A stretch of DNA of 64,000 bases from Apostichopus japonicus (lineage: Eukaryota; Echinodermata; Holothuroidea; Aspidochirotida; Stichopodidae). Numbering within the stretch: position 1 is the stretch's first letter; each line of letters starts with the position of its first letter. The notes under the pieces are model-generated. The model made no database searches, had not been told where the DNA came from, and saw only the letters and a list, made by a program, of their open reading frames with translations. Position numbers and translations under genes: made by a program. Below, piece by piece: positions 493-45,026 of the stretch. The DNA lies in the NCBI RefSeq assembly GCF_037975245.1, contig NC_092564.1, forward strand, positions 17,409,484 to 17,473,483. The letters are read 5' to 3'.

Positions 493-3400
493 CTGCAAAC
501 ACGAGAAATATCACCCCAAAGAGAAAAAAGAGGAGAGAAAAAAATAATTATTCAAGTGAGGTACGATGGTTGGAAATTTGATCCATATTGTAAATAAATA
601 TTGTTTCATCTATCTAAACACCAGAGGATATGCGCAATCTAATATATACTAGAAGGCTTATTGGGCTGTCTCGCCTCTGATGACGTCTGGCTGATTAACT
701 TTCACTGATGGAGAAAGTGTCTCAAAGAACAGAGCACATCAGTGACACTCCCAAGTGAGATGGATTCCTTTTATAAAGTTCAAAGAACTGACAGTACAAA
801 CCAAAAAGCTGCACATTTTTTACTAGTACTGTTACAAATCCCTCTGGTTTGCCATTTTGAGGTTTAGACACCCCCTTTTCCCAGTCCCACTCACCCCCCC
901 CCCCCCCCACACATTGTCTTATTCCATTGATCCCTCACTTTAAACCTGGACATTGCCTTGTTAATGTAAAGTCTCCCGCAATGCAAACGTGTGAGCAACG
1001 AAACATAATAAGTGTTTTTTTTATTCTTCCTTTTTTTGAAGTATGTAGTGGTTCACAGCATGTGTGTAAAAGTTTTAGAAAAGACTGTTACAAACTACGT
1101 TCTTTTGTTACATGAGCTGTCAAAACAACAACTGTTTAGTACTTCAGACAGTATTTCAGATATATATTAATTTGTTTTTAAACAAATAACATAAAACCTA
1201 GCCTTGCAACACTTTAACAGGGCTCCAATGGATCTGAAATTGGCCTTGACTACTTTACATATTCATGAAATCCCTCAGCTTAAGTTTACATCTTCACCAA
1301 ACGATTGGAATATCAGCGTAGCTAGCCAATTGAACCATTGTATATTAGATAAAAGTTCAAAATTTATACAATACTCTGGAAAGCCTCCTCCAGGTAAATT
1401 AGACACAACCCTTTGTCCTTCCTGGGCTCTATTATTTACATACGTGTGTGATGGGCAATTCTGTCTTTTAAAATACAGCCCTCACCTCGTTGTGCATAAC
1501 ACGACCGGACGCGGCTTACCTTAGACTGAAATCCTGTTCCCACTATCGTCTCCCTCCAATTTTCATCTTGGAGCATAAACGTATGAAAGAGATGGTCGCG
1601 ACCCATTTCTTCGTGGGAGGCCACCCTCTGAAGGAAAGTCTCCAACCCGACCCTCCGCCTCTCGATGAAGTCCGCATCAAAATGGTCGACAGTGGACATC
1701 TGTTGCCACATGATGGTCATCTAATATCAGAGAGAGAGACAGAGAGAGAGAATGATACACAGGGGTAGGATTTATAATTCAATCAACCACGTTCATCTTA
1801 TACAGGAAACGCAGAGACCTGACACCTCAAAAAAGTTTGGTAAAAGGTAAAGAGGGAAAGGAAAGGAAAGGAAAAAAGAAGTTTTGTGAAAGTACTTATT
1901 ACTGGATTTGCAAGACAAGACCGGGCCTGGAAATCGGATATAATTTTGGCTGAGGGCCATCTAAACTGATACCATTTCATATTTTTTTTCCAACTTCACA
2001 AGCTCACTTTGTAACATCATATACACTGAATTTCAAATTCCTAATAAAAATATGACTCTAAGAACATTTCAAAGAAAATGAGTTCTATGACATTTTGAAG
2101 CCTCCTGAAGTTTAACTACTGTACCCTAACCAATAGACCTACGGACAACCCCAGACGGGTCATATGATGAGAAAACAAAGTCTCACAGACTACTGTATAT
2201 TAGTAGAAGTAGTAGTTTGAGTCTCGTCTATCCGACATGCTCAGTGATTAACCTCCGCCACGTATCACGATCTTGCGCAAGGTTTATTGCTTCCTCAAAA
2301 TTGTTAATATTAACGTCCTTAATTTCCGACTTTATTTTTCCAAGCAGGGTAGTCACGGGCCTTCCTACTGGTTTAGCAGTATGTCTCAGTGCTTCTCGTA
2401 AAGCAACCTTTGCTGGAGCGTCCTCCTGGAGCCTTGCTACATGACCAAAAAATCCCAATCTTCTATGTGCGACTATGGATGACCAAGGTGTTTGGTTGGT
2501 TTCATTGTAGAGCTCATCGTTTGATAACCAATTGTTATTGGTCCATCTAATGTTGAGAATATTACACAGTAGTCTCCATTGAAATATATTCCATTATCAT
2601 ATAAACCATACCAGTATATTAAACCATGATAATTAAAGCCTAGACATCGTGTAAACATGGTTTCAAAAGTATTTATTTATTTTCTATTTATTTCTCTCAG
2701 TGACTGACACTTCATGCATACATCAAAGGCAAAAGAACTCTTCATCAAACTTTTGCAGTTTCTGTCTTTGAATTGGTTGTATTTTTTATATTAAATCTAC
2801 AATGAGTTAAATAAGAGACACTATTTGTATTACTGTACATATACACTGTAGTAGAAAATGTTACCAATTATCAGAAAGGTTAGAAAATATAGAAAAATAC
2901 AGAAAATATAGAAAAGTTACCAATTATCACATAAAGTCAGGGATTGTGACATAAAAAAAAAAGGCTGGATTTCCTTAAACTATTCTTTGGTGTCTATTTT
3001 CAGTTGTTTTTTATAATCAGTACAGGTATATAACAGATCAGTCCAACATGGTTTGAGCATGATTTATCCAAGAAAAGGGAAAGGTCATTATTCTTTAAAC
3101 AATAGAAAAGTTCTGTAGTACTGCAGTTGACAACCTATTCCATCAAGAGTAATTTAATTTAATTAATTTATAACACAAATTATGATAAAGAGATGTTATG
3201 TAGATAGTCATGTTGCATAAAAATCATTTGATGTTGTATGATACTGGCTCATACTAGCTACATAGATTATACCACACATATCCATGTACTTCTAACAATT
3301 TCAACCGATTCCTTAAAAAGTAAGTAAAAAAACAAAAAAACATTAAGACAAGTTTCCTTGTCAATAAAGAGCCATTTTTTCAAGATTGGAATTTGGAAAT

Positions 3401-6400
3401 TGGAAAAGCAAAATACGATGTAAATCTTTCTCACTCTTTTCTCGGGCAAGGGAGGCACAATGACATATGGGAACGTCACCACCAAGTAATTTCTGAGCAT
3501 CTCAAATTCACTGTACCTCCTCCAGAGCGATGAAGGATTTCCAGCCACCTGCCTCTTCCTGCCATTTTCTTCTCGAATTCTGAAAGTGAAAAAAATTATG
3601 ATGTGGTGAGCGAACTGTCGACAAAATCATCGTCAAGACGCGAGTGTCGATTGTCCCCCACATGAAAGGAAGAATGTATCTAAATTCACTTACTCTTAGC
3701 TCTAGAAGAAATCACAGAATTCTGTTTAAAGTCACAGGTGACAGATGTCTCCAATGCAGCTTATTACTGTACTGAACTGATGTTTGGAGCGTGCACCATT
3801 AGTCTTGGCATCCTGATAAATCCCATTCAGTCATGTTTTCAACAGTAATATTGAGATCTGTTGTGACATCTTCATAAAGCAACTCCTCCGAATATTTAAC
3901 CCCCCTGCCAATTTTCACCCAATTTTCTTCCCAACTTTACACCATCTTTAACATTCCCTGTGTATCCTGTAGTACATTTGAGTTAGTCAAGACAAATATC
4001 AGTTTTGTAAACATGTATAGTACCTTGAGATACTGTATACCGAGCTATACATAACAACAAAATGTGCAGTAAAAGTTTATCAAGCCTTGACGAGGTATTG
4101 CTCTTGCCACTAAAATGAATTTAGGGATGCATTTCTCAAATCTACAATGAGACGAACTCTCTGAATCACTGTGAGGGTGTGGAACGGATACCAGGTCCCT
4201 CTAGACATGCTAGAACAAGAGTGCAGAGGCTATGAGGAGACAGGTAAGTCAGGACGCAAAACAGATCAGACGGTGTTCTTCAGAACTGTTATTTTCAGGT
4301 CCTTTTTCAAGTGAAAATTTTCACCGTCCTGCAAAACTGAGGTCTTTTATACATTGTTAAGTCCTTAATGTACAGTAATTTTATATCTTGTCTGTACTTC
4401 CTACAATTCTTTCCAAGTCACAAAACCTTCATACATTCGCATTTTCATAACAAATAATTCAATTTTGTTATTTACTAAAAAAGACAAAAATACTATTTGT
4501 AAAAGTAGTACATGTTACCAAACATCAACTGATGTCACTAGACAATGTGTGTAATTATTTCTTATAAACACAATCTGTTCAAGACTTCTACAAACTCATG
4601 TGTATCTTCTTCTTCTGTGTAAATTAAATTCAGCTCGACACGTCTCAACTTCCCCAAAAAGTGCAAAGTAACAGTACGTCCAGTGCAGTAGCTCAAACAC
4701 TGGCTAATTATACAGTATAACGCTGTTTTTGTACAGTTATGTCACATTGGCTTGTCACATTGACTGTTCAATTAAAGATTTAAGCATCTGGTGACTCATG
4801 GAATACAAATTAGGCCTCTTATTTCTTTTTTATTATAACTTTTAAACAAAGATATTGTTTGAGAATCTTGAGTTCTCAGAGACATCAACTTTGACAGCTA
4901 AGTGTCTGAATTTATGTTCAAGTCAGACCCACCACCCACGATGATTAACAGTGGCATTAAGTTGTTCGAAATAGGCCTACAAGAAAAGCTTGTCTTCCTG
5001 TGACTACAGAGGAGCCTGGCTGTGTGATGGAATGAATGTGAGTAATTGAGTATGATCTATAGTACACAGTACGATGATGGTAATATGCATGTACGGTACA
5101 CTATGAATAGACTGATGACTGTACAGTACAGGTGTGTGATTCTATCAAGTGCACAAAATACTATACAGTATGATTGGAAAGGTGTGATTCTAATTGAAAA
5201 CACATGTTTATGTCAAAACACATGTTACAGTATGTGTCCAAACCCATGTTACATTTCAATGATAATGTTCCATTCGTTAAAGCAGGGGATAATATTCCAT
5301 TAGTTACACAGGGGATACCGTTCCATTAGTGAAGCAGGGTGTACTGTAGGATAGTAAGTTAAGGTAGACAAAACTGGTAATTACAGGCAAGTGTATACCT
5401 TCAGACTTCCAAAAACGTCCATGGTGCAACGCAAAAACCCCAACAGATTTCGAGCTGACAAAATACTGTATCCTAGATATTGTAGAAACCATGTTCAGTA
5501 GAAACCATTTCTGATCATTGTTAAATTCGGATGGGAAGAGGGCTCAGAGAGAGTGTCATTGTGAGTGCAGTGCCAGATACCAATTGTTATAGGCTAAGTA
5601 GAGCAGAGTGTTTATATAGTACAGTTTGTATGGGGAGACAGGTGAGAGAGAGAGCAATGAAGTAAACAGTTATTATTTCAACTCCCTCTCTGAATGAGGG
5701 ATAAAGGTACTGTACAGTACTGTACTGTTGTTCTGAACTAACTGTAAATAGTACTCATGATTACCGATAAAGTTGTTTGCCTGGAATCAGTTACACACGA
5801 AATCACTTCAATGTCCGTTTCAACATGCCGATAAAGACTTCACGATTGTAAAACTCTAATCGAAACAATATTTGGGGATATTTAAAGTAATAAAATAATG
5901 ACTGAATTAAGGAGATGTTTTCTCCCCTCCCCCCCTCCCTCCTCAAGTTTCAGTTGTTTAAAATTGTAATGTACAGTGTGGTTAATTCTTTTTTCTTTAC
6001 TTGTTTTAAGTTGTTGTAATCAACATGAAAGTAAATGTAAGGAATTTTATCATCCTTCACTGGAAGGTTATCATAAAATAAACAAAAAATGCTTTATTAT
6101 TGTTCATTAGTAAGCCATACTGCAGCGTTACTGTTTGTCTCTGACTGAGTGTTCTGTACCAAACACATGTATTCATACTGTATGGTACGGTAATGTATAC
6201 AGGCAAGAAATTCCAGGAGATTTCTAACAATACAGCCAATTCACATGCTAGTACACAATACTATTGTACTGAAATATTAAAAAAAAATTAACAATATAAT
6301 TCATAACATTGTACTACGTAATACTATATGCAAGCATTGTGGATGTTTTATATTATATTATTATTATTATACAATATTATTGTAAGATACTATGTGAAAT

Positions 6401-14961: not shown

Positions 14962-16073
14962 CTCTCCTAGATTATTGTGTGACCAATATTAGGAAGAAGA
15001 AGTTGCTAAAGCATGAACATAGCACTTGACTAGAGTTCTTTTATAGAGAGTTCTCTATACACTGAGTTCTGTTTAAGGAACTCTAATGACATGACGCAGC
15101 ACGCAGCACACCATTTCCTTTCCTTTTCACATAACCCGTTGAATTCTGTATTTCCTTTTTTCCTACAAATTTCGACAACAGTTTTGAATTTTGCAGTGAA
15201 GATCAAAATTTCGATGAAACACTGGAATTTGTACAGTTTTATATGAAAATTTCGCCCTTAAAAGTCACAAGGCCAAAATTGAAAAAAACAATAACAAAAA
15301 ACGTGAAAGTATAACCGGTATAAGCCAGCCCAGATGTTCCATGTGAAATTTCTTAAATTTTTCAAGAAAAAAAATCCATTTAGTGAAATTAAGGTGAGCT
15401 AATAGAAACAAGTCGCTTGATGGTACCATCTTTCAGTATACTAACGTCAGTGTTTGGTAAGGTAAGTTATTTTAAGTGTACAAAAAAACCTAAATTGCAG
15501 TATAAGTTAAATGTGGCGCAACTTTGTGTCACCGTATAAAACCGCTCTAAAACCATCGCAAATGATCCAAGCTAACAATGCTTGCTAGGGAGTGAAATAA
15601 TGGTCACTCATTCTCAAACTTGAACAACTTGCATGTTGTATTTCACTGCCAAATTGTATTCTTATCAGCACTGTATATGAAAGCAGGTCGGTATAGGTGC
15701 AGAAAAGCAAAGTTTTTTAATTAAGTCTTTAACAGTTTTGGCTTTGCTAAATTTTGGGGTCAATATCAAAGACGGTTCTTGTTGAATGTAAAAATCTCTC
15801 CTTTTTATTGGGGGGGGGGGGGTACTATTCGGTAGTAAATAACCCACACAATCGCGACGATATTCCTTCTTTTTCCTATGAAAAGCAATGTAACCTACAC
15901 AGTGAACAATTTTCGCATGACTAAGTACAGTCATGGATTCAACTGCCAGTAGAGTAATAGTTATGGTACGTCCTATAGATGTGTCCATCGAACGACTCGC
16001 TCTGTTATGGTCACACAACGATATTCTGAGACAATAATGCACCACATTTTAGGCAATGCTTACCTCATTTACT
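14962..16073. other. Intergenic DNA upstream of SNX4
   Basis: AT-rich sequence with a G-run near 15809-15821. I see no gene or element. The open frame at 15665-16045 (minus) has no recognisable content. Confidence 0.4.
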
Positions 16074-16231
16074 TTTTAAGAAAAGTCACCCAGGAAAGAA
16101 CCTGGGCACGAAAATCAAACTACCGAACGACTGATCCACTCTCAACCCCAGTCCCATTGCATCGAGACTGTGACTGTGTGATCATCGTCTGGTGTGTATC
16201 ACCATTCCACTCGAAAGGGAACAGATATACT
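16074..16231 (-). mobile_element. U2-headed SINE copy 1, 3' part (split by a MITE)
   Basis: Same family as the copies at 19362 and 43952. The minus-strand body from CCTGGGTGACTTTTCTTAAA back to ATATCTGTTCCC is here. The 5' head continues at 17012-17040 after the inserted element (GATCATGTGTAGCATATC across the junction). The head is mutated (TTGGTTAAGATC), so this is an old copy. Confidence 0.8.
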
Positions 16232-17003
16232 CAAGGGCGGCGGAACCGGGGGGGGGGCACAGGGGGCACGTGCCCCCCCCACTTTTCCTCAGGTTAAAAA
16301 TGTGCCCTTTTTCTACATAAAAATTTCTAAATAAAAAAAGAGTTTACAAAGCGAAACCCACGTCGAATGAAATATTTCGGGAAGTTTTAAATGTTTACTA
16401 CCACAGGCGTAGGAGCCCAATTTGATTTGGGGGGGCTGTAACGACTTGCCCGAAAAATATTACAGAAATTTTTCGCGCGCTACGCGCGCGTTCAACATCT
16501 CAATGTGCATATCATATAGGCATGCGTTGGTTATTACATCGCATGCCAATAGCATGCAATCATTTGCCGTGTTATAACCCTTCCAAATTGGTTATAATTA
16601 TTCGGAAAGTCGTTACAATAATAATGATCATAATAATATCAGTTTAACCATTGAAAAACACATGGAAAATTTTTTTTCTTTCAGTATTTTGACATATTTC
16701 ATTTGCTCTCATGCATGTATCGATCGCGTGTGCAGGGACTTGGACTTTATAATGATTTCACCTCATTGTGTCTTTTTCCTTCTTTCCCAATTTGCACATT
16801 AGATATTGCAGTGCTAGTATGCATTGTTCCCTTGAGAGGGGGGGGGGGTGGCGTTGATGGAGTGATGTGTATACGCAAATAAGATAATACAATAAGAGTT
16901 ATAAAGGGTACTAAATATCAGGCTGCATCAATCCAATCGAATTTCTGCAAAGTGCCCTTCGACTTTGGTGCCCCCCAGATTAAAAGTGCTTCCGCCACCC
17001 TTG
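16232..17003. mobile_element. hAT-like MITE, 772 bp, inserted into a U2-headed SINE
   Basis: The ends CAAGGGCGGCGGAACC and GCTTCCGCCACCCTTG are inverted repeats (14 of 16). The flanking 8-mers GATATACT (16224-16231) and GATATGCT (17004-17011) match 7 of 8. The G-run plus GCACAGGGGGCACGTGCCCC near the left end is shared with the element at 27541. An extra internal segment (16404-16680, from CAGGCGTAGGAGCCC) is related to the right half of the element at 35613-36649. Confidence 0.85.
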
Positions 17004-17011
17004 GATATGCT

Positions 17012-17040
17012 ACACATGATCTTAACCAAATGGCCAAAAT
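17012..17040 (-). mobile_element. U2-headed SINE copy 1, 5' head remnant
   Basis: Continuation of the copy at 16074-16231 beyond the MITE insertion. On the minus strand it reads TTTTGGCCATTTGGTTAAGA then TCATGTGT, a decayed version of the U2 5' end. Confidence 0.65.
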
Positions 17041-18368: not shown

Positions 18369-19361
18369 GGGAGGTGGAGCCCCCCTCCCCTTTGGAAAAT
18401 TTTCTATTGCTGAATGCCCTCAGATGCATTTGGTGCGACAAAAGTGTACAATGGTGATGTTAATTTACTTCTAATAAAAATGTTTCCCAGGTGTAATTTT
18501 CTAAAATATTTATGAAACAAAGTTGGGATCATCTTTCTCAAGAAATTTTATTTCTCATAGGTTATAAATTTCTTACAACCAGCCTGTAACTGCAAAATGG
18601 TGTTAAACTGTAAATCCTCATGCTCATACATTTACATAGCTCCCAACTCTTGAGAAGGCAAATGCTGGTCATGCCACGAATCGCTGTCCTGGGGGTGGGG
18701 TATTAGGGGAGGGGGGTGTCCCCCTCCCCTTTTGATTTTTTTTTGGGAATCCTGGTGATGCCTACATGTAAAATAGTGGCACTTAGAAAGGCTTTTGTCA
18801 CCCAAAATGTTCTGAGAAATATGCATTTTTCTGTGTGTAACATCAATAAATTGAATAGTAGGTGATAATTCATTCTTTCCCGTGGCATGAAAATGTTCGC
18901 TGCTCGCCCCATTGAAAAGAAATATAGGCTAATTTGAGGTTCAAATGATGCTGTAAAGGAGGTTTAATACTCTATTATGCTAAATGTTAAAGAAATGATG
19001 GTTGCTAAGTCAAAATTTGATGCAAATTTTTTTATGTATACTTGACAATTACAATGCGGTTTTTTCGGACGCTTGTGCGGGTCAGCGGGTTTGGGTGTTA
19101 GAATGCGGGTCTAATTCCCGCGAATTGCGGGTCAGTTGGGAGCTCTGCATTTAATTTTAAACCAGAAAACGAAAAGGTTTAGACTAGTCTACCACTGCTA
19201 TTCCTCTCGATTTTTTAAATTTCCAATCATATGATTTAGCGGATGTTCGGAAACACTTTTCGGCTCACCTTTGGGGGGGCCATGGCCCCCCTTGGTCCCC
19301 CCCTTGGATCCGCCAGTGTATCTGACTTGTAATTTGACTTGTAAATAAACTGAAGATACTT

Positions 19362-19549
19362 TTTAAGAAAAAGTCGCCCAAGAAAGAACCTGTGCACGAA
19401 AACCAAACTACCAAACGACTGATCCGCTCTCAGCCCCACTCCCCTTGCATCGGGACTGTGACTGTGTGATCATCGTCGGGTGTGCATCACCATTCCCCTC
19501 GAAAGGGAACATATACTACACATGATCTTAGCCAAAAGGCCGATAAGCG
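19362..19549 (-). mobile_element. U2-headed SINE copy 2
   Basis: On the minus strand the 5' end reads CGCTTATCGGCCTTTTGGCT and continues AAGATCATGTGTAGTATATG. This is the first ~45 nt of U2 snRNA with few changes. An unrelated ~145-nt body follows, ending GACTTTTTCTTAAAA. The flanking 13-mers ACTGAAGATACTT (19349-19361) and ACTGAAGAGACTT (19550-19562) match 12 of 13, as expected for LINE-mediated retroposition. Confidence 0.87.
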
Positions 19550-19553
19550 ACTG

Positions 19554-19648
19554 AAGAGACTTGACTTGACTTGACTAGAATTGCAATAACATCAAGTACT
19601 TTGTGATTTGATTCACTCGACTTGAAGAAAATTGACTTGGAACTTGAC
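19554..19648. repeat. GACTTGACTTG-type low-complexity stretch
   Basis: Repeated CTTGACTTGA words abut the SINE. Similar words occur at 47322-47410 and 47890-47950, so this may be part of a dispersed repeat family. Confidence 0.4.
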
Positions 19649-21776: not shown

Positions 21777-24572
21777 TCAATATGTAGTTGCTGGCACTTC
21801 TCGAACGATTAGCCGAGATGCGCTATTCCATCCGGTCGAAGCATCATAGTTTCCAAAACCGGAACAGTCTCCAACGGCTAACCGAACGTGAATCTCGCCA
21901 GCTCCGACGTTATGGCAGTATCCTATCAAGATAATAATAATAATAAGCAAAGAAATGTACGCGGTAGTTTATTAGATGTAATACTTTGTTTTTAAATTTG
22001 ACAGGCTAGATAAGTTGAAGCTGATGCGCATCTTCAAATACAGAGGACGTGTGATCCACTTCTACGAACAATGTTCGTGGAGTGATATAGTTACCGTACT
22101 CAGCGGCGAAAGTATCGTTAGTAGTATATTATGACGTCATCATATGTAGTATATGTTTCTTTTCGAAGGGATAGTTCACTTGAAATTGACGAAACATTGT
22201 CATGGTTTTACAGCATCTTGTTGGCGTTCCATAATGTATACATACTGTTCCAGTCGCGTCTTAAGGGGATTGTGGTTGAGAGTGGATCAACTTAAATTTG
22301 TTTGGTTTTCGTACCCAGGCTCTACTAGTATCTTGAGTGACTTTTCTTAAACGCAGACACATTAGTTTTCAGCGTTATCATTTTCATGACTCATGAATCA
22401 GGCACAGACAGGCATCATTTCGCAGTTTAGAAATACATTTTCACAAGCAAACGAATGCTATACTATTTCTACTATACTATTTCTCATCAGTTTGTAGAAT
22501 CTCTTACTTTTTGCCGAGAGGGTCGGGGGGCAGGGAGGTACAGTCATGGCAGTAATTGTTGGGGTCTTCAACATCACACAATTAATTTAGTGCCTATGTA
22601 TAGTCACTCTTTAAGGTTATAGGGTGAAACAGATACAGAATTGTGATTATTATTCCTTATAATTGCTTACCTTCGAAACTTCTATGTCTGTGTAGATTCA
22701 TTTCATTAGTGTTTTCCTGGTAGACTACCGCGTCTATCACTGTCGGAGAGCTACATTCGTTACCATTGAAGGTAATGTACCATCTCTTGCAACATCCACT
22801 ACATCCATAGACTCGTAGGTTACCACCATAGTAAACCCAAAGAGCGGTGTCACTGTACTGCTTAGTGAAGACGCAGTCCTTCGAGGCAAATCAAAGAGAA
22901 GACATGTATTTTATAGGCATAAATATACTTTCTGTTTCTATCCTCTTTGTTTGGTTTCAATGATCATATTACTGTCAATGATTTGGATAGGGCCTTAATT
23001 TCAACGTACTAGGGGTACTTGTCTATCCACGGCTCCAGTCAACTATGTGCCGCCCCCCCCCCGGCCCTGACCCCAAAAGGAACAACTATTGGAGCCCCTG
23101 GGCTTCTGGGATACATTTCAATAAATTTTCCAATCTAACATGTTTTTTGAGCTTGAAATCGCTATATTAAAGAATAAGAAATATCTGACAATGTTGCGGC
23201 TTTCCGCGGGTCTCCCTGGACACTAATCACGAGAAGCTCTTCTCTATACCTCAGTGCCATCTCAATCAGAGACAGAGCCCCCATCCCCAAAACGAATACC
23301 CTCTTGTGTCTCTGCTGATAAATTATCCCTCTGTTCAATGTCCCTTTGTACTAATCTGCACCCGCCACTCCCCCCCCCCCTCTCCGTGCCTCCCTCTCCT
23401 CCAACCAATTGTGAATTCTGGTTTTCAATATAAGTCAATTATGTAGGACTTACATATATGTTGGTATCGTAGTCGTTACCATTTCCAGAATACCAGGCGC
23501 ATTGTCTCCAGTTATTGTAGTCCAAGAATTCTCCCTGACCGGGGTCACCTGTCAGTCCAACATTTCCTTTATCTCCCTTTAGTCCAGCTTCACCTCTCGA
23601 ACAACCCTATTAAATTGGACATGATTTGTTTGTTTGTTGTTGTTTCTTTATCGAAATTTTGAAAGAAATCTGACATATTGAAACTTTTTTTGACATATTG
23701 AAACATTTTGAAACATTTCTGACATATTGAAACATTTTTTTGTCAGTTTTATTTTGCAGTATAGGTCACACTATACCATACAGGCTACTTTGAATCGTTG
23801 TGGTTGTTACAATTTTATGGAGATATGAAACTGTTGAAACCAAAATAAAGATGTTTTTTTTTTTTTTTTGGTGTTGCAAAAATTTAATTTCATATTTTAT
23901 TCTTAAAGCCAAATGCATATATATTCGTGATCGATTTAACACTTTTCTGACAATTGAATTGGTTTAACTGTCGTACTTTTACTTGTTTTGGGGCAAAAAA
24001 ATTTACTCAACGTTGGTTGGATATAAATACACCTATATATATATACATACCCAGTGTTGGGTAAAATAAGTTGCCCGACGTCTTTAAACACCAATGTCTT
24101 ATTCGTGTTACCTGGTTTATGTGTTGGGGAAGGGAGGAGGGGAGAGGGGTTCAATGCGGTATATAGGCTTTACTGTTGTTTTCTACTTCGCGATGGAAAT
24201 GGCTGATCGAAAATATGGCAGAGGGACGGGGTAGGTGAGGAAGAGGAGCGCTTATAGAATAGCGGTTTCACCTATTTGGAAATGAATCCATTTTAGAAGA
24301 TTGATTAAAGCGTACATGTAATTTTTCGGGTTTTACACTCGGATACTGCATTACGTGGACACTCCTCTATATAGGACATATAACAAGTGCAGACTGAAAG
24401 GTCTATGTATAGTTGTTCGAGTTTTTTTTCAGTTTTCAACGAACGTGTAAATTATTAAAATATAAGCAAGAATTAAGCCACTTACCGAATACGATGCACT
24501 TTCTATTAACTTGTCGATGATTAGAAGACTAAATAAAACTAAAGTCAACTTTATCCAGTAATATGAATACAT
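21777..24572 (-). CDS. CTHRC1-like secreted collagen-repeat protein, gene A (197 aa)
   Basis: Four exons: 24486-24572, 23454-23606, 22671-22878 and 21777-21922, with GT-AG introns in phases 0, 0 and 1. Residues 1-27 or so form a signal peptide with a hydrophobic core (LTLVLFSLLII). Residues 30-55 hold a short collagen-like Gly-X-Y run (GEAGLKGDKGNVGLTGDPG). The C-terminal domain has the CTHRC1 family motifs CVFTKQ, GCSGCCKRWYITFNGNEC, a Cys in GDCSGFGNYD, and STGWNSASRLIV. Vertebrate CTHRC1 (about 243 aa) is a secreted matrix glycoprotein linked to collagen deposition and Wnt/PCP signalling. The protein here is shorter between signal peptide and collagen run. It is the most diverged of the three copies. 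Seen: exons and motifs. Inferred: function. Confidence 0.95.
22250..22352 (+). mobile_element. U2-headed SINE copy 5, degraded 3' part, in intron 3 of gene A
   Basis: On the plus strand the 3' half of the U2-headed SINE is recognisable: GGTTGAGAGTGGATCA, then TTTGGTTTTCGTACCCAGG, then TTGAGTGACTTTTCTTAAA. The U2 head is missing or too diverged. Confidence 0.7.
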
Positions 24573-28500: not shown

Positions 28501-31171
<2,671 letters not shown>

Positions 31172-35393: not shown

Positions 35394-37694
35394 GAATAGG
35401 AAAATCCAGAACAGTGAAAAAACTTCCAGCCTCCACCGGGATTCGAACCCAGGCCTCCCGCTTTATATGCGGACACCCTAACCACTAGGCTATATATGGA
35501 CGCTGATTGTATGTCCAGAATTTCGAAACCGGTATAAGGAAAGTCGTAATTCCACTCTAGGCGCTTGTCACCTGTATCGAACAATACTAGTTCTGTTTTG
35601 GTGACATATAAGCATAGGCGTAGGAGGCGGGGGGCTGGGGGGCTGCAGCCCCCCCCCCAACCAATTATTTTTGTGAAAATTCGGGCAATATGCTGAGAAT
35701 TTTTCGGGCACCTACTGGAAGAATAATAATTTGCAGAGTGTTTTTCATTTTTTTTTTTGTGAAAATTCGGCAATATGCTGAGAATTTTTCGGGCATCTAC
35801 AGAAAGAGTAATAATTTGCAATGTGTTTTTCAATTTTTTGGTGAAAATTCGGGCAATATGCTGAGAATTTTTCGAGCACCTACTAAAAAAAAGAATAATT
35901 TGCAATGTGTTTTTCAAATTTTTTGGTGAAAATTTGGGCAATATGCTGAGAATTTTTCGGGCATCTACCAGTGGCGGAGCGTTCATACAGTCAGAGGGGG
36001 CGGATGCCCCCCTGTCGGACTCAAATGGACTGCTAGCGCCCTTTTCAGCTTTTTTACCACTTTCTACTTATTCGGGATTATTGACTTTTTATTGCGATCT
36101 CAAATACCTATTGACATTTGTCACATTTTGTCGGTGCAATTTTCTGACAAATGGCGATGACACCTATTTATTCTTCGTTTATCTGCAAATTAGCTAGGCC
36201 TGGAAAGGGTCATTTCCGGCGATCTAGGGAGTATCTTTACTCCAAAAAATTTTCTACGCTCCGCGCCAACCAGTGGTGGCGCTCCGCTTAGATAGTGTCA
36301 GAAAACGCCCCTACAGACCATTCTCTCCCCCTGACTAATACCCCTAGCTCCGCCACTGGCACCTACTGAAAGAAGAAGAATTTGAAATGTGCTTTTTTTT
36401 CAATAGTTAAACTTATATTATTATCATTATTGTTGTAACGACTTCCCCAATAATTAAAACCAAAATGGAAGGGTAATAACACGAACAATGATTTTATGTT
36501 ATTGGCATGTGATGTAATAAGCGATGAATGCCTATATGATATGCACATTAACATGTGGAACGCGCGCGGAGCGCGCGAAAAATGTTGGTTATATTTTTCG
36601 GGCAAGTCGTTACAGCCCCCCCAAATCAAATGAGGCTCCTACGCCTATGCATATAAGCCCTTCTCTAGAGATCAAACATGATGCTAACCAACTCGAAATC
36701 ATTTATGATTCCTTAAAAGCCGGATCTAGAAAGAGATATATAGTTACGTATAGAGTTCCGCTATCTGAGCCATCAGATGACTCCCACGTGCACTCTTTCC
36801 AGTTTCTTGAAGGCGACACGTCATACCAACTATCATCGGTCCCCGTTCCGATAGGTCCATCGTCTCCTTGGACTCCAGGGAGGCCACGGGGCCCAACACA
36901 TGACTGTGGTATATGAGGACATAAAGGAATGATTTCATAAAGAGGTGGAGTGTTTAATGCTACCATTTTCGGTTAAACAGTACTTATAAGAATGATGGAT
37001 GGGTGCGTGGATTTGAACCTCCCATTTAAACTTGAAAACTGAATAGGCATATATACTTCTTAAGTCCATTAAAAGGCTTATTAAAAAATCTAGTCACATA
37101 GAAGGAGGGGAAAAAGCGTGAATGGCTCGCCAATGAAAAAATAAAAAAACATTACATTTATGTAATATTGGCCTACATACATGTAGGCCAATATAACAAT
37201 TCTATACTATAGATTAAAATGGTAGAAATCCAACATATAGTCGTATAGAAGCTTGCTAAACGGTTGCTACCACTTACGTATTCATTTATTTGTAAATATT
37301 AATTAATGAAACGGCTTGGTAAGAATGGATGGTACCGTGACCCGGTTAACACCTCCGATTTACCCTTCCCAGTTCAAGATGTGATATTATATACCAAATG
37401 TCTGGTTGCAGAACATATATATATACTTTCTATGCAGCTCATCGATTCTCATGACTATCTTGCGTGAATTATATATATATACAATAACATGACCAAAGTA
37501 TTTCAAAGTCCATTTTAAAACGTTTCTCTTTGTCTCTTAGAAATATAAATTTGGTGAAATAGTAAAGTAACAGTCATTCAATTCTTCTAGGAACAATAAT
37601 TGATTATATTTACCTGTGATCCATTCCCTGACAATACCAGGAATGATAAAAACAGGAACACATTTAGAAACGATGTTATCATCATGTCGGCCAT
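34126..37694 (-). CDS. CTHRC1-like secreted collagen-repeat protein, gene C (196 aa)
   Basis: Four exons: 37614-37694, 36748-36903, 34839-35046 and 34126-34271, with lengths and phases identical to gene B. Same architecture: signal peptide, five Gly-X-Y triplets, then the CTHRC1-type domain with [17 protein letters not shown]. Compared with gene B I count six replacements, four of them in the signal peptide (positions 11, 12, 14 and 22), plus T to S in exon 2 and N to D late in exon 3. All frames are intact, so both copies look functional. Intron 2 is enlarged by a DNA element (35613-36649). Confidence 0.95.
34600..34803. mobile_element. hAT-like MITE in intron 3 of gene C
   Basis: Orthologous to the element at 28977-29169, with the same CAGGCCCG...CGGGCCTG ends and a slightly longer C-rich interior. 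It was copied along with the duplication. Confidence 0.78.
35317..35387. repeat. (AT)n microsatellite in intron 2 of gene C
   Basis: A near-pure TA run next to the tRNA-headed SINE. It corresponds to the left-block arrays. Confidence 0.9.
35395..35495 (-). mobile_element. tRNA-headed SINE in intron 2 of gene C
   Basis: Same insertion as at 29930-30045. The A box TAGCCTAGTGGTTAGG is at 35477-35492 and the B box GGTTCGAATCC at 35439-35449 on the minus strand. Confidence 0.85.
35670..35960. repeat. Four tandem ~85-bp units inside the element at 35613
   Basis: Each unit has GTGAAAATTCGGGCAATATG, then AATTTTTCGGGCA and AATAATTTGCA. The 238-residue minus-strand open frame here is only this repeat read through. 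Confidence 0.85.
35969..36358. mobile_element. hAT-like MITE, 390 bp, nested (inverted copy of the 17611 MITE)
   Basis: The ends are CAGTGGCGGAGC and GCTCCGCCACTG, exact inverted repeats. The flanks GCATCTAC (35961-35968) and GCACCTAC (36359-36366) match 7 of 8. The interior matches 17611-18006 and 40200-40596 in the opposite orientation. Confidence 0.9.
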
Positions 37695-43579: not shown

Positions 43580-43951
43580 GCATTGTATGTAAGTCAGGGA
43601 ATAATTTAACAATTTGTGTAGCAGTTTTGAAGTCACAGAACTTGTCTCTTATGAAATGTTAAGGTTCCTGTGTGAAAAATTGCTATACATCTTTGGACTA
43701 TGATAGCAGTTTGATCATTTTGCATGACATTTTGCGATGCGATAAAGGATAAATTATTCCCTGTATTGACTTCAGATTACAATATGCAATTCAACATAAC
43801 ATTACAGTATATGTGCAGTATATATACATGTATGTATGTACAGTATTATGAAAATAATTGGGGCCATTATAAACAAGGATAGACAATAGAAGTTTCGTAG
43901 TCATTAGTTTATTGCTATTCCAGCAAAATGAATTGAGTAAATCTGGTACTT

Positions 43952-44142
43952 TTTATAAGGAAAAGTAGCCCAGGAAAGAACCTGGGCACGAAAACCAAAC
44001 TACCGAACGACTGATCCGCTCTCAACCCCAGTCCCCTTGCATCGGGGCTGTGACTGTGTGATCATCGTCGCGTATGTATCACCATTCCCCTCAAAAGGGA
44101 ACATATATACTACACATGATCTTAGCCAAAAGGCCGAGAAGC
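43952..44142 (-). mobile_element. U2-headed SINE copy 3, best preserved
   Basis: The minus strand starts CGCTTCTCGGCCTTTTGGCT, identical to U2 snRNA, followed by AAGATCATGTGTAGTATATA. The body ends near CTTTTCCTTATAAAAA. The flanking 17-mers GAGTAAATCTGGTACTT (43935-43951) and GAGTAAATCTGATACTT (44143-44159) match 16 of 17. Confidence 0.92.
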
Positions 44143-44159
44143 GAGTAAATCTGATACTT

Positions 44160-44833: not shown

Positions 44834-44840
44834 TATGTGT

Positions 44841-45019
44841 TGCTTCTCTGCCTTTTGGCGAAGATCATGTGTTCCTTTTGAGGGGAATGGTGATACACAC
44901 CTGACGATGATCACACAGTCACAGTCCCAATGGAAGGGGACTGGGATTGAGAGCGGATCGGTCGTTCGGTTGTTTGGTTTCGTGCCCAGGTTCTTTCTTG
45001 GGTGACTTTTCTTAAAAAG
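44841..45019 (+). mobile_element. U2-headed SINE copy 4
   Basis: The plus strand starts TGCTTCTCTGCCTTTTGGCG and continues AAGATCATGTG. The body has GGGAATGGTGATACACACC, TGAGAGCGGATCGGTCG and the end GACTTTTCTTAAAAAG. TATGTGT flanks at 44834-44840 and 45020-45026. The branch-recognition part (GTAGTATATG) is deleted. Confidence 0.85.
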
Positions 45020-45026
45020 TATGTGT

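Follow-up and report, generated by a model that had tools for sequence, protein, structure and literature searches.

A SINE with a U2 snRNA head in the sea cucumber Apostichopus japonicus has copies inside U2 genes that may be its reproductive source

For SINEs headed by a small nuclear RNA, we know of no settled answer to how the head is acquired, or to how such elements are transcribed given that snRNA promoters lie upstream of the gene. The question is raised by a 64,000-nucleotide stretch of the Apostichopus japonicus genome (NC_092564.1, positions 17,409,484 to 17,473,483; hereafter the window), in which a first-pass annotation had proposed a SINE family whose five copies share a body and, where the head is kept, match the start of U2 snRNA. 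Alignment confirmed the shared body at all five places. The U2 match, far from being restricted to one copy, is found in the heads of four copies and partly in the fifth; three of these heads belong to copies with near-complete 5′ ends, and one has been split off by an insert. The copies and their flanks, in window coordinates, are as follows.

16070..16231, minus strand: SINE copy c16, body and tail
16232..17003: later insert of about 772 bp that divides c16 and looks, by eye, like a DNA transposon
17005..17035, minus strand: remainder of the c16 U2 head, past the insert
19349-19361 and 19550-19562: 13-bp target duplications of c19, with 1 mismatch
19362..19549, minus strand: SINE copy c19, near full length (body-sharing match 19357-19550)
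22139..22352, plus strand: SINE copy c22, diverged and interrupted (best pieces 22139-22171 and 22263-22352)
43935..43951: 17-bp target site duplication on the 3′ side of c44a, with 1 mismatch
43952..44142, minus strand: SINE copy c44a (body-sharing match 43947-44144), with the U2 head at the 44142 end, then the body, and a 3′ hairpin tail at the 43952 end
44143..44159: 17-bp target site duplication on the 5′ side of c44a
44834-44840 and 45020-45026: possible 7-bp duplications of c44b
44841..45019, plus strand: SINE copy c44b (body-sharing match 44842-45021), lacking 9-10 bp at the head/body junction

The U2 match is not a chance resemblance, because the 27-mer CGCTTCTCGGCCTTTTGGCTAAGATCA occurs three times in the window (with up to three mismatches) as against no occurrence in 100 shuffles. 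Three of the heads score 41.5 (c44a), 36.7 (c19) and 25.3 bits with the Rfam U2 model; values below its gathering cut-off of 46 are expected, since only U2 nt 1-45 is present. With all three under that cut-off, the idea that SINE heads swell the published snRNA count was set aside as unsupported. Target duplications of 13-17 bp had also been described, and these hold for the copies at 43952 (17 bp) and 19362 (13 bp); none was seen at the 22250 copy. The insert in c16 has short imperfect terminal inverted repeats (CAAGGGCGGCGGAA... and ...TTCCGCCACCCTTG, by eye) and an 8-bp near-duplication (GATATACT/GATATGCT), and it is probably a non-autonomous DNA transposon. Elsewhere in the window, minus-strand pieces of a PX domain at 1439-1720 and 3270-3626 (E 4.4e-8 and 1.5e-9) are presumably exons of SNX4. 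Two tRNA-like stretches (29977-30048, near long TA repeats, and 35428-35499, minus strand; 38-42 bits) possibly represent a second, tRNA-headed SINE.

A genome search with one copy returned 2,385 first-look candidates. The best 40 of these were scored, a choice that biases completeness, full length and identity upwards: every one matches at 92-100% (the query itself is among them), 39 begin within the first six query bases, and all 40 extend to base 185 of the 194-base query. Two additional shorter matches adjoin scored copies. The consensus, built from 30 genome copies and 2 window copies, is 195 bp long and consists of U2 nt 1-45, the body and a ...GGTTTTCGTGCCCAGGTTCTTTCCTGGGCGACTTTTTCTTAAAAAGTA end. 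Its head is identical at 45 of 45 positions to the species' own U2, the comparison proposed in the first-pass annotation, and includes an unusual T30 where the Rfam consensus has A. Among the 30 U2 loci compared there are three forms, all agreeing over nt 1-45, and 27 loci carry a single sequence. A relationship between the body and the remainder of U2 (nt 46-193) was rejected (score 9, shuffled median 11). Thus the proposed family stands, with dispersed matches across the genome, a perfect head and real target duplications: the element is a non-coding SINE of about 191 bp, dispersed in many copies with target duplications of variable length, and its U2 head places it in the SINEU group of the Repbase classification (PMC5753468).

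We came across no named SINE with the same body in the sources consulted outside Repbase. Exact head or body patterns had no match in IMG/VR and GTDB contigs, and no U2-headed SINE of an echinoderm was named in the titles and abstract openings returned by a literature search. The family was probably left unclassified in the published A. japonicus annotation, which assigns only 159,644 bp to SINEs (PMC10344927). We estimate that the genome holds several thousand copies or more. In 135,700 bases, comprising the flanks of 33 loci and four random 10-kb pieces, there are five clear bystander copies (in the flanks of L011, L015, L028 and L033, plus L064), a count that excludes a neighbour in the L022 flank, a weak 71% match in the other L028 flank and the U2 array. 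This density of about 37 per Mb would amount to something on the order of 25,000 copies in the whole genome (a wide Poisson range, roughly 8,000-58,000), possibly with a bias in that most of the counted bases flank other SINE copies. The window itself, picked for holding them, has five in 64 kb.

At the head/body junction (for example 44082-44103 of the window, minus strand), U2 nt 40-45 pair with GGGAATGG of the body and form a hairpin, whose arm varies among copies (CCCTTTCGAGGGG, CCCTTAGGG, CCCCTCGGG) yet is always palindromic. This junction may act as a recognition structure or mark a hotspot.

Inspection of the U2 genes themselves places SINE bodies within them. Among the 46 U2 matches listed, 42 lie on C16 at 31.01-31.16 Mb on the minus strand, many spaced 645 bp apart, and 4 lie on C15. 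The genes on C15 (G000:C15:3.62 and 6.37-6.53 Mb; L031-L033) have flanks unlike those of the C16 array and a few base changes, and are perhaps U2 variants. We read 87,009 bases of the array within G000:C16:31005262-31136069, and in these many U2 genes are interrupted. The SINE tail-to-U2 pattern TTAAAAAGTATCTGTTCTTTTCAGC, which by design fixes the 3′ junction, has seven exact matches in the genome, six in the C16 array and one in a U2 copy on C20. BLAST of the array bases, some of which had been fetched through that pattern, found seven SINE bodies in six U2 genes, each ending at the same 3′ junction; two of these copies were first met, independently of the pattern, in the flanks of intact U2 genes. 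Three LINE families in the array, A, B and C, share this junction. U2 resumes at nt 35 after the SINE and LINEs A and C, and at nt 38 after LINE B, the last bases being ambiguous. The SINE-bearing genes are arranged as follows.

31132509, 31133952 and 31059492 (array): promoter, U2 nt 1-45, body, U2 from nt 35 onward; the copy at 31059492 differs from U2 by one base, at nt 43
31134735 (array): U2 nt 1-53, truncated body, U2 from nt 35 onward, with a 19-bp U2 duplication
31021932 (array): U2 to about nt 40 with a truncated body, then a second body
31006848 (array): truncated body behind LINE A, with U2 nt 35-53 on both sides
C20 copy: double head, with U2 to about nt 27 and then the SINE head

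The 5′ junctions are thus of at least five kinds, and therefore several insertions occurred and not one, although the three full-length array copies may be a single insertion spread by unequal exchange. The U2 promoter region of the SINE-bearing genes is unchanged. Over the 300 bp upstream, five of these genes are identical to the intact unit at 300, 300, 300, 299 and 298 positions, and the three in which U2 nt 1-45 run directly into the body retain 299-300 of 300. Over the 401 bp from U2 nt 35 onward, five SINE-bearing genes are identical to the intact unit at 400-401 positions.

We consider it likely that this is a U2-targeted SINE, moved by U2-specific LINEs and transcribed by the U2 promoter, from which copies spill to other sites. 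A rather unlikely alternative is that the head was added once, by a LINE reverse transcriptase that switched templates from SINE RNA to U2 snRNA, and that the U2-gene copies are a later side effect of U2-targeting machinery. The recurrent addition of U1 or U2 heads that is reported for crocodilian SINEU elements counts in its favor, as do known chimeras between LINE insertions and non-coding RNAs (PMC13174262). However, the 5′ junctions of LINEs and SINEs inserted in U2 range over nt 25-53, so that a head ending at nt 45 falls within this range and beside the 3′ junction, which on a 193-nt RNA would be a coincidence if the head came from template switching. Moreover, three genes have the U2 promoter and the body in one contiguous unit.

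Recombination or gene conversion between the heads of dispersed SINEs and U2 genes, in place of retrotransposition, could also have put bodies into the array. The 45-bp head is homologous to U2, and the full-length array copies join precisely where that homology ends. This explanation is quite improbable in view of the truncated, headless copies at 31134735 and 31006848, which are accompanied by 19-bp duplications of U2 nt 35-53. Such duplications are a signature of target-primed insertion, from the same nick that the LINEs use.

The U2-resident copies have close relatives among the dispersed ones. The junction word CCCTTTCGAGGGG occurs in 23 of the 29 best matches other than the window's own copy, and the array copies have CCCTTAGGG, CCCCTCGGG or CCCCTAGGG instead. 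A 19-mer spanning the junction variant of array copy 31132509 (CTGTTCCCTTAGGGAATGG) has 59 matches, 58 of them outside the array. Twelve loci, covering 14 of these 58 and selected by the 19-mer itself, are 97.1-100% identical to that array copy (mean 99.3%), four of them being 100% identical over the aligned part; the mean for 29 other copies is 94.1%. The array haplotype at five further sites, all of them outside the 19-mer, is ATCTT; nine of ten typed young loci carry it, and the tenth agrees at its four scorable sites. A plausible intermediate haplotype, ACCTT, is found in 3 of the 29 other copies. Judged by sequence, the U2-resident copies belong to one lineage with the youngest dispersed subfamily, and we infer that the array copies are the source of the dispersed ones, although an unseen source could be ancestral to both. 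Most of the family consists of older copies, and because the array now holds only the youngest haplotype (in the bases read), its role as the source of old copies is an argument by analogy.

Some dispersed copies have compound structures. In L004, which carries two heads, the target duplicates enclose the entire double-headed unit (by eye), as would be expected of RNA from a double-headed U2 gene. L078, L079 and L081 are dispersed dimers, with two bodies joined by AGTATCTGTTC; the junction words are 153 bp apart in L078 and L079, and the two bodies of L081 belong to different subfamilies. These three dimers can be explained by a second insertion at the U2 site, either in a SINE head or in a U2 gene. 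We dropped them as proof of a U2-gene source, since insertion into the SINE's own head gives the same structure.

A more conventional SINE would be propagated by dispersed copies that carry an internal Pol III promoter, with the U2-gene copies as irrelevant insertions. The many dispersed copies agree with this, as does a weak A-box-like word in the head (TGGCTAAGATC, 6 of 8 positions, the best A-box match in the consensus). The best B-box match in the consensus, in contrast, reaches 6 of 10 positions and none is acceptable, so that the pair of A and B boxes that defines an internal Pol III promoter in a SINE head is not present. U2 genes have their promoters upstream, so that a U2 head alone does not supply an internal one. 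For these reasons copies in U2 genes have a promoter, which dispersed copies probably lack. The near-identity of the young dispersed subfamily to a U2-array copy is likewise at odds with sources scattered among the dispersed copies, and we give this explanation little credence.

Which enzyme would move a U2-targeted SINE is suggested by the LINEs beside it. Each of LINEs A, B and C has two long ORFs, and full-length copies of LINE C are 99.9-100% alike. ORF1 of LINE C contains a zinc knuckle, and ORF2 contains an APE-type endonuclease (Exo_endo_phos, 3.5e-19) and a reverse transcriptase (RVT_1, 3.6e-38) plus a zinc finger, its nearest PDB chain being human L1 ORF2p; by eye, ORF2 of LINEs A and B also starts APE-like. 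According to PMC4640811, Keno has an APE-type endonuclease, Keno and Utopia share the U2 insertion site and its 3′ flanking U2 sequence (from nt 39 in print), the named hosts of Keno are frogs, fish, lancelet and hydra, and those of Utopia include two sea urchins and a starfish. The sea cucumber elements are followed by U2 from nt 35 or 38, a position close to the printed one once the ambiguous last bases are considered. Because LINE C, one of three families, combines an APE-type endonuclease with reverse transcriptase, and because the U2 site is common to these LINEs and Keno, we call the U2-resident LINEs Keno-like; they may extend Keno to echinoderms. Mobilization by Utopia, which shares the site and is reported from echinoderms, is very improbable, given that Utopia has a C-terminal restriction-like endonuclease and no APE domain, that LINE C has an N-terminal APE-type domain, that LINEs A and B by eye begin APE-like, and that LINEs of the A-C kind were the only ones noticed on reading through the 87,009 array bases.

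The insertion sites of the dispersed copies have a limited resemblance to U2. Of 32 copies, 22 have target duplications that score above the 95% level of mismatched pairings. Among copies that end in AGTA, the next base is T in 16 of 23 older and 11 of 11 young ones (background 0.31), as at U2 nt 39. The 5′ flanks match the AGTATC of U2 at 50 of 132 bases as against a null of 35.6 +/- 4.9 (11 of 5000 draws), a test possibly helped by how the duplications were found. The resemblance is located in the AGTA part; the TCTG part agrees at 24 of 88 bases, which is about background, and T stands at the first TCTG position in 8 of 22 copies in the TCTG registration. The T after AGTA could partly be copied from U2 sequence in the RNA. 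It is also present, by eye, in the 5′ duplicate of L079, L084, L085, L086, L088 and L089, and the insertion site of L086, AAGTATCAGTTTCTG, is very like U2. A safe statement is that dispersed insertion prefers sites of the type TA^T.

It had been suggested that the TTTTCTTAAAA end of the SINE would match the 3′ end of a partner LINE. A short terminal motif is indeed shared (CTTAAAAAGTA and CTTGAAAGAAAGTA), but nothing longer: outside the U2 part, no match between the SINE and LINEs A, B and C is better than E 0.003. Hence the usual arrangement, in which the SINE tail is copied from the LINE, is without support in these three families. None of the dispersed copies has the exact TTAAAAAGTATCTGTTCTTTTCAGC continuation into U2, all seven exact genome matches being in U2 genes.

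A life cycle can be proposed in which the reproductive SINE copies live inside U2 snRNA genes. The body sits in U2 at the site of U2-specific Keno-type LINEs, directly behind an unchanged U2 promoter, and the U2 promoter would transcribe U2 nt 1-45 together with the body, so that the U2 head would be nothing other than the transcribed 5′ part of the target gene. A Keno-like LINE protein would reverse-transcribe this RNA from its ...AAAAAGTA end, at a nick that, from the junctions, probably resembles the AGTA^TCTG of U2. Because exact continuation of the tail into U2 is seen only in U2 genes, either priming inside a longer primary transcript or an RNA that ends at the tail has to be assumed. 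Insertion into another U2 gene would renew a promoter-bearing copy, and here the head of the incoming cDNA may pair with the target U2 and restore the register, which we infer because full-length copies in U2 genes have no duplicated head. Insertion elsewhere, at TA^T-type sites, would yield dispersed copies that carry no recognizable internal promoter and are probably dead on arrival. A stricter version, to which we give about an even chance, is that the element is a promoter-less SINE obliged to cycle through the U2 gene: it would insert with LINE aid, borrow the U2 promoter and start, acquire U2 nt 1-45 as its head and re-enter in register through head pairing, and its dispersed copies would scatter thousands of extra U2-type target sites.

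U2-headed SINEs are a known class, and what appears new is the life cycle through the U2 gene. The crocodilian SINEU elements that Kojima reportedly described in 2015 have heads from U1 or U2 snRNA and are said to be moved by a target-preferring LINE of the Tx1 clade, Tx1-Mar, with a Mariner element as their specific target. The sea cucumber SINE is like them in its snRNA-derived head. It differs in coming from another animal phylum, in having a head that equals the host's own U2 as far as the LINE target site, in having source-like copies in U2 genes, and in having the U2 site as its specific target. Keno is likewise a Tx1-clade LINE, and the sea cucumber LINEs resemble it in their U2 site, their two ORFs and, for one family of three, their APE endonuclease and reverse transcriptase. 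In contrast, the SINE is non-coding with a body of about 150 bp, and echinoderms are not among the Keno hosts named in the available part of PMC4640811. A further parallel is found in ribosomal RNA genes. R2 and its short internally deleted relatives (SIDEs) reside in 28S rRNA genes and use the promoter of the gene, much as the sea cucumber SINE resides in a multicopy RNA gene whose promoter it would use. Unlike these elements, its RNA would keep the 5′ part of the target gene as a head, and it also spreads widely outside the gene.

A likely intermediate in the making of an snRNA-headed SINE is visible in this genome: a SINE within a U2 gene, behind the U2 promoter and beside LINEs inserted at the same site, to which young copies in other places are nearly identical. 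The U2-gene copies suggest how snRNA-headed SINEs could obtain both head and promoter, a question that becomes testable in a cultured animal. They also suggest that a large repeat family can have its nursery in U2 genes.
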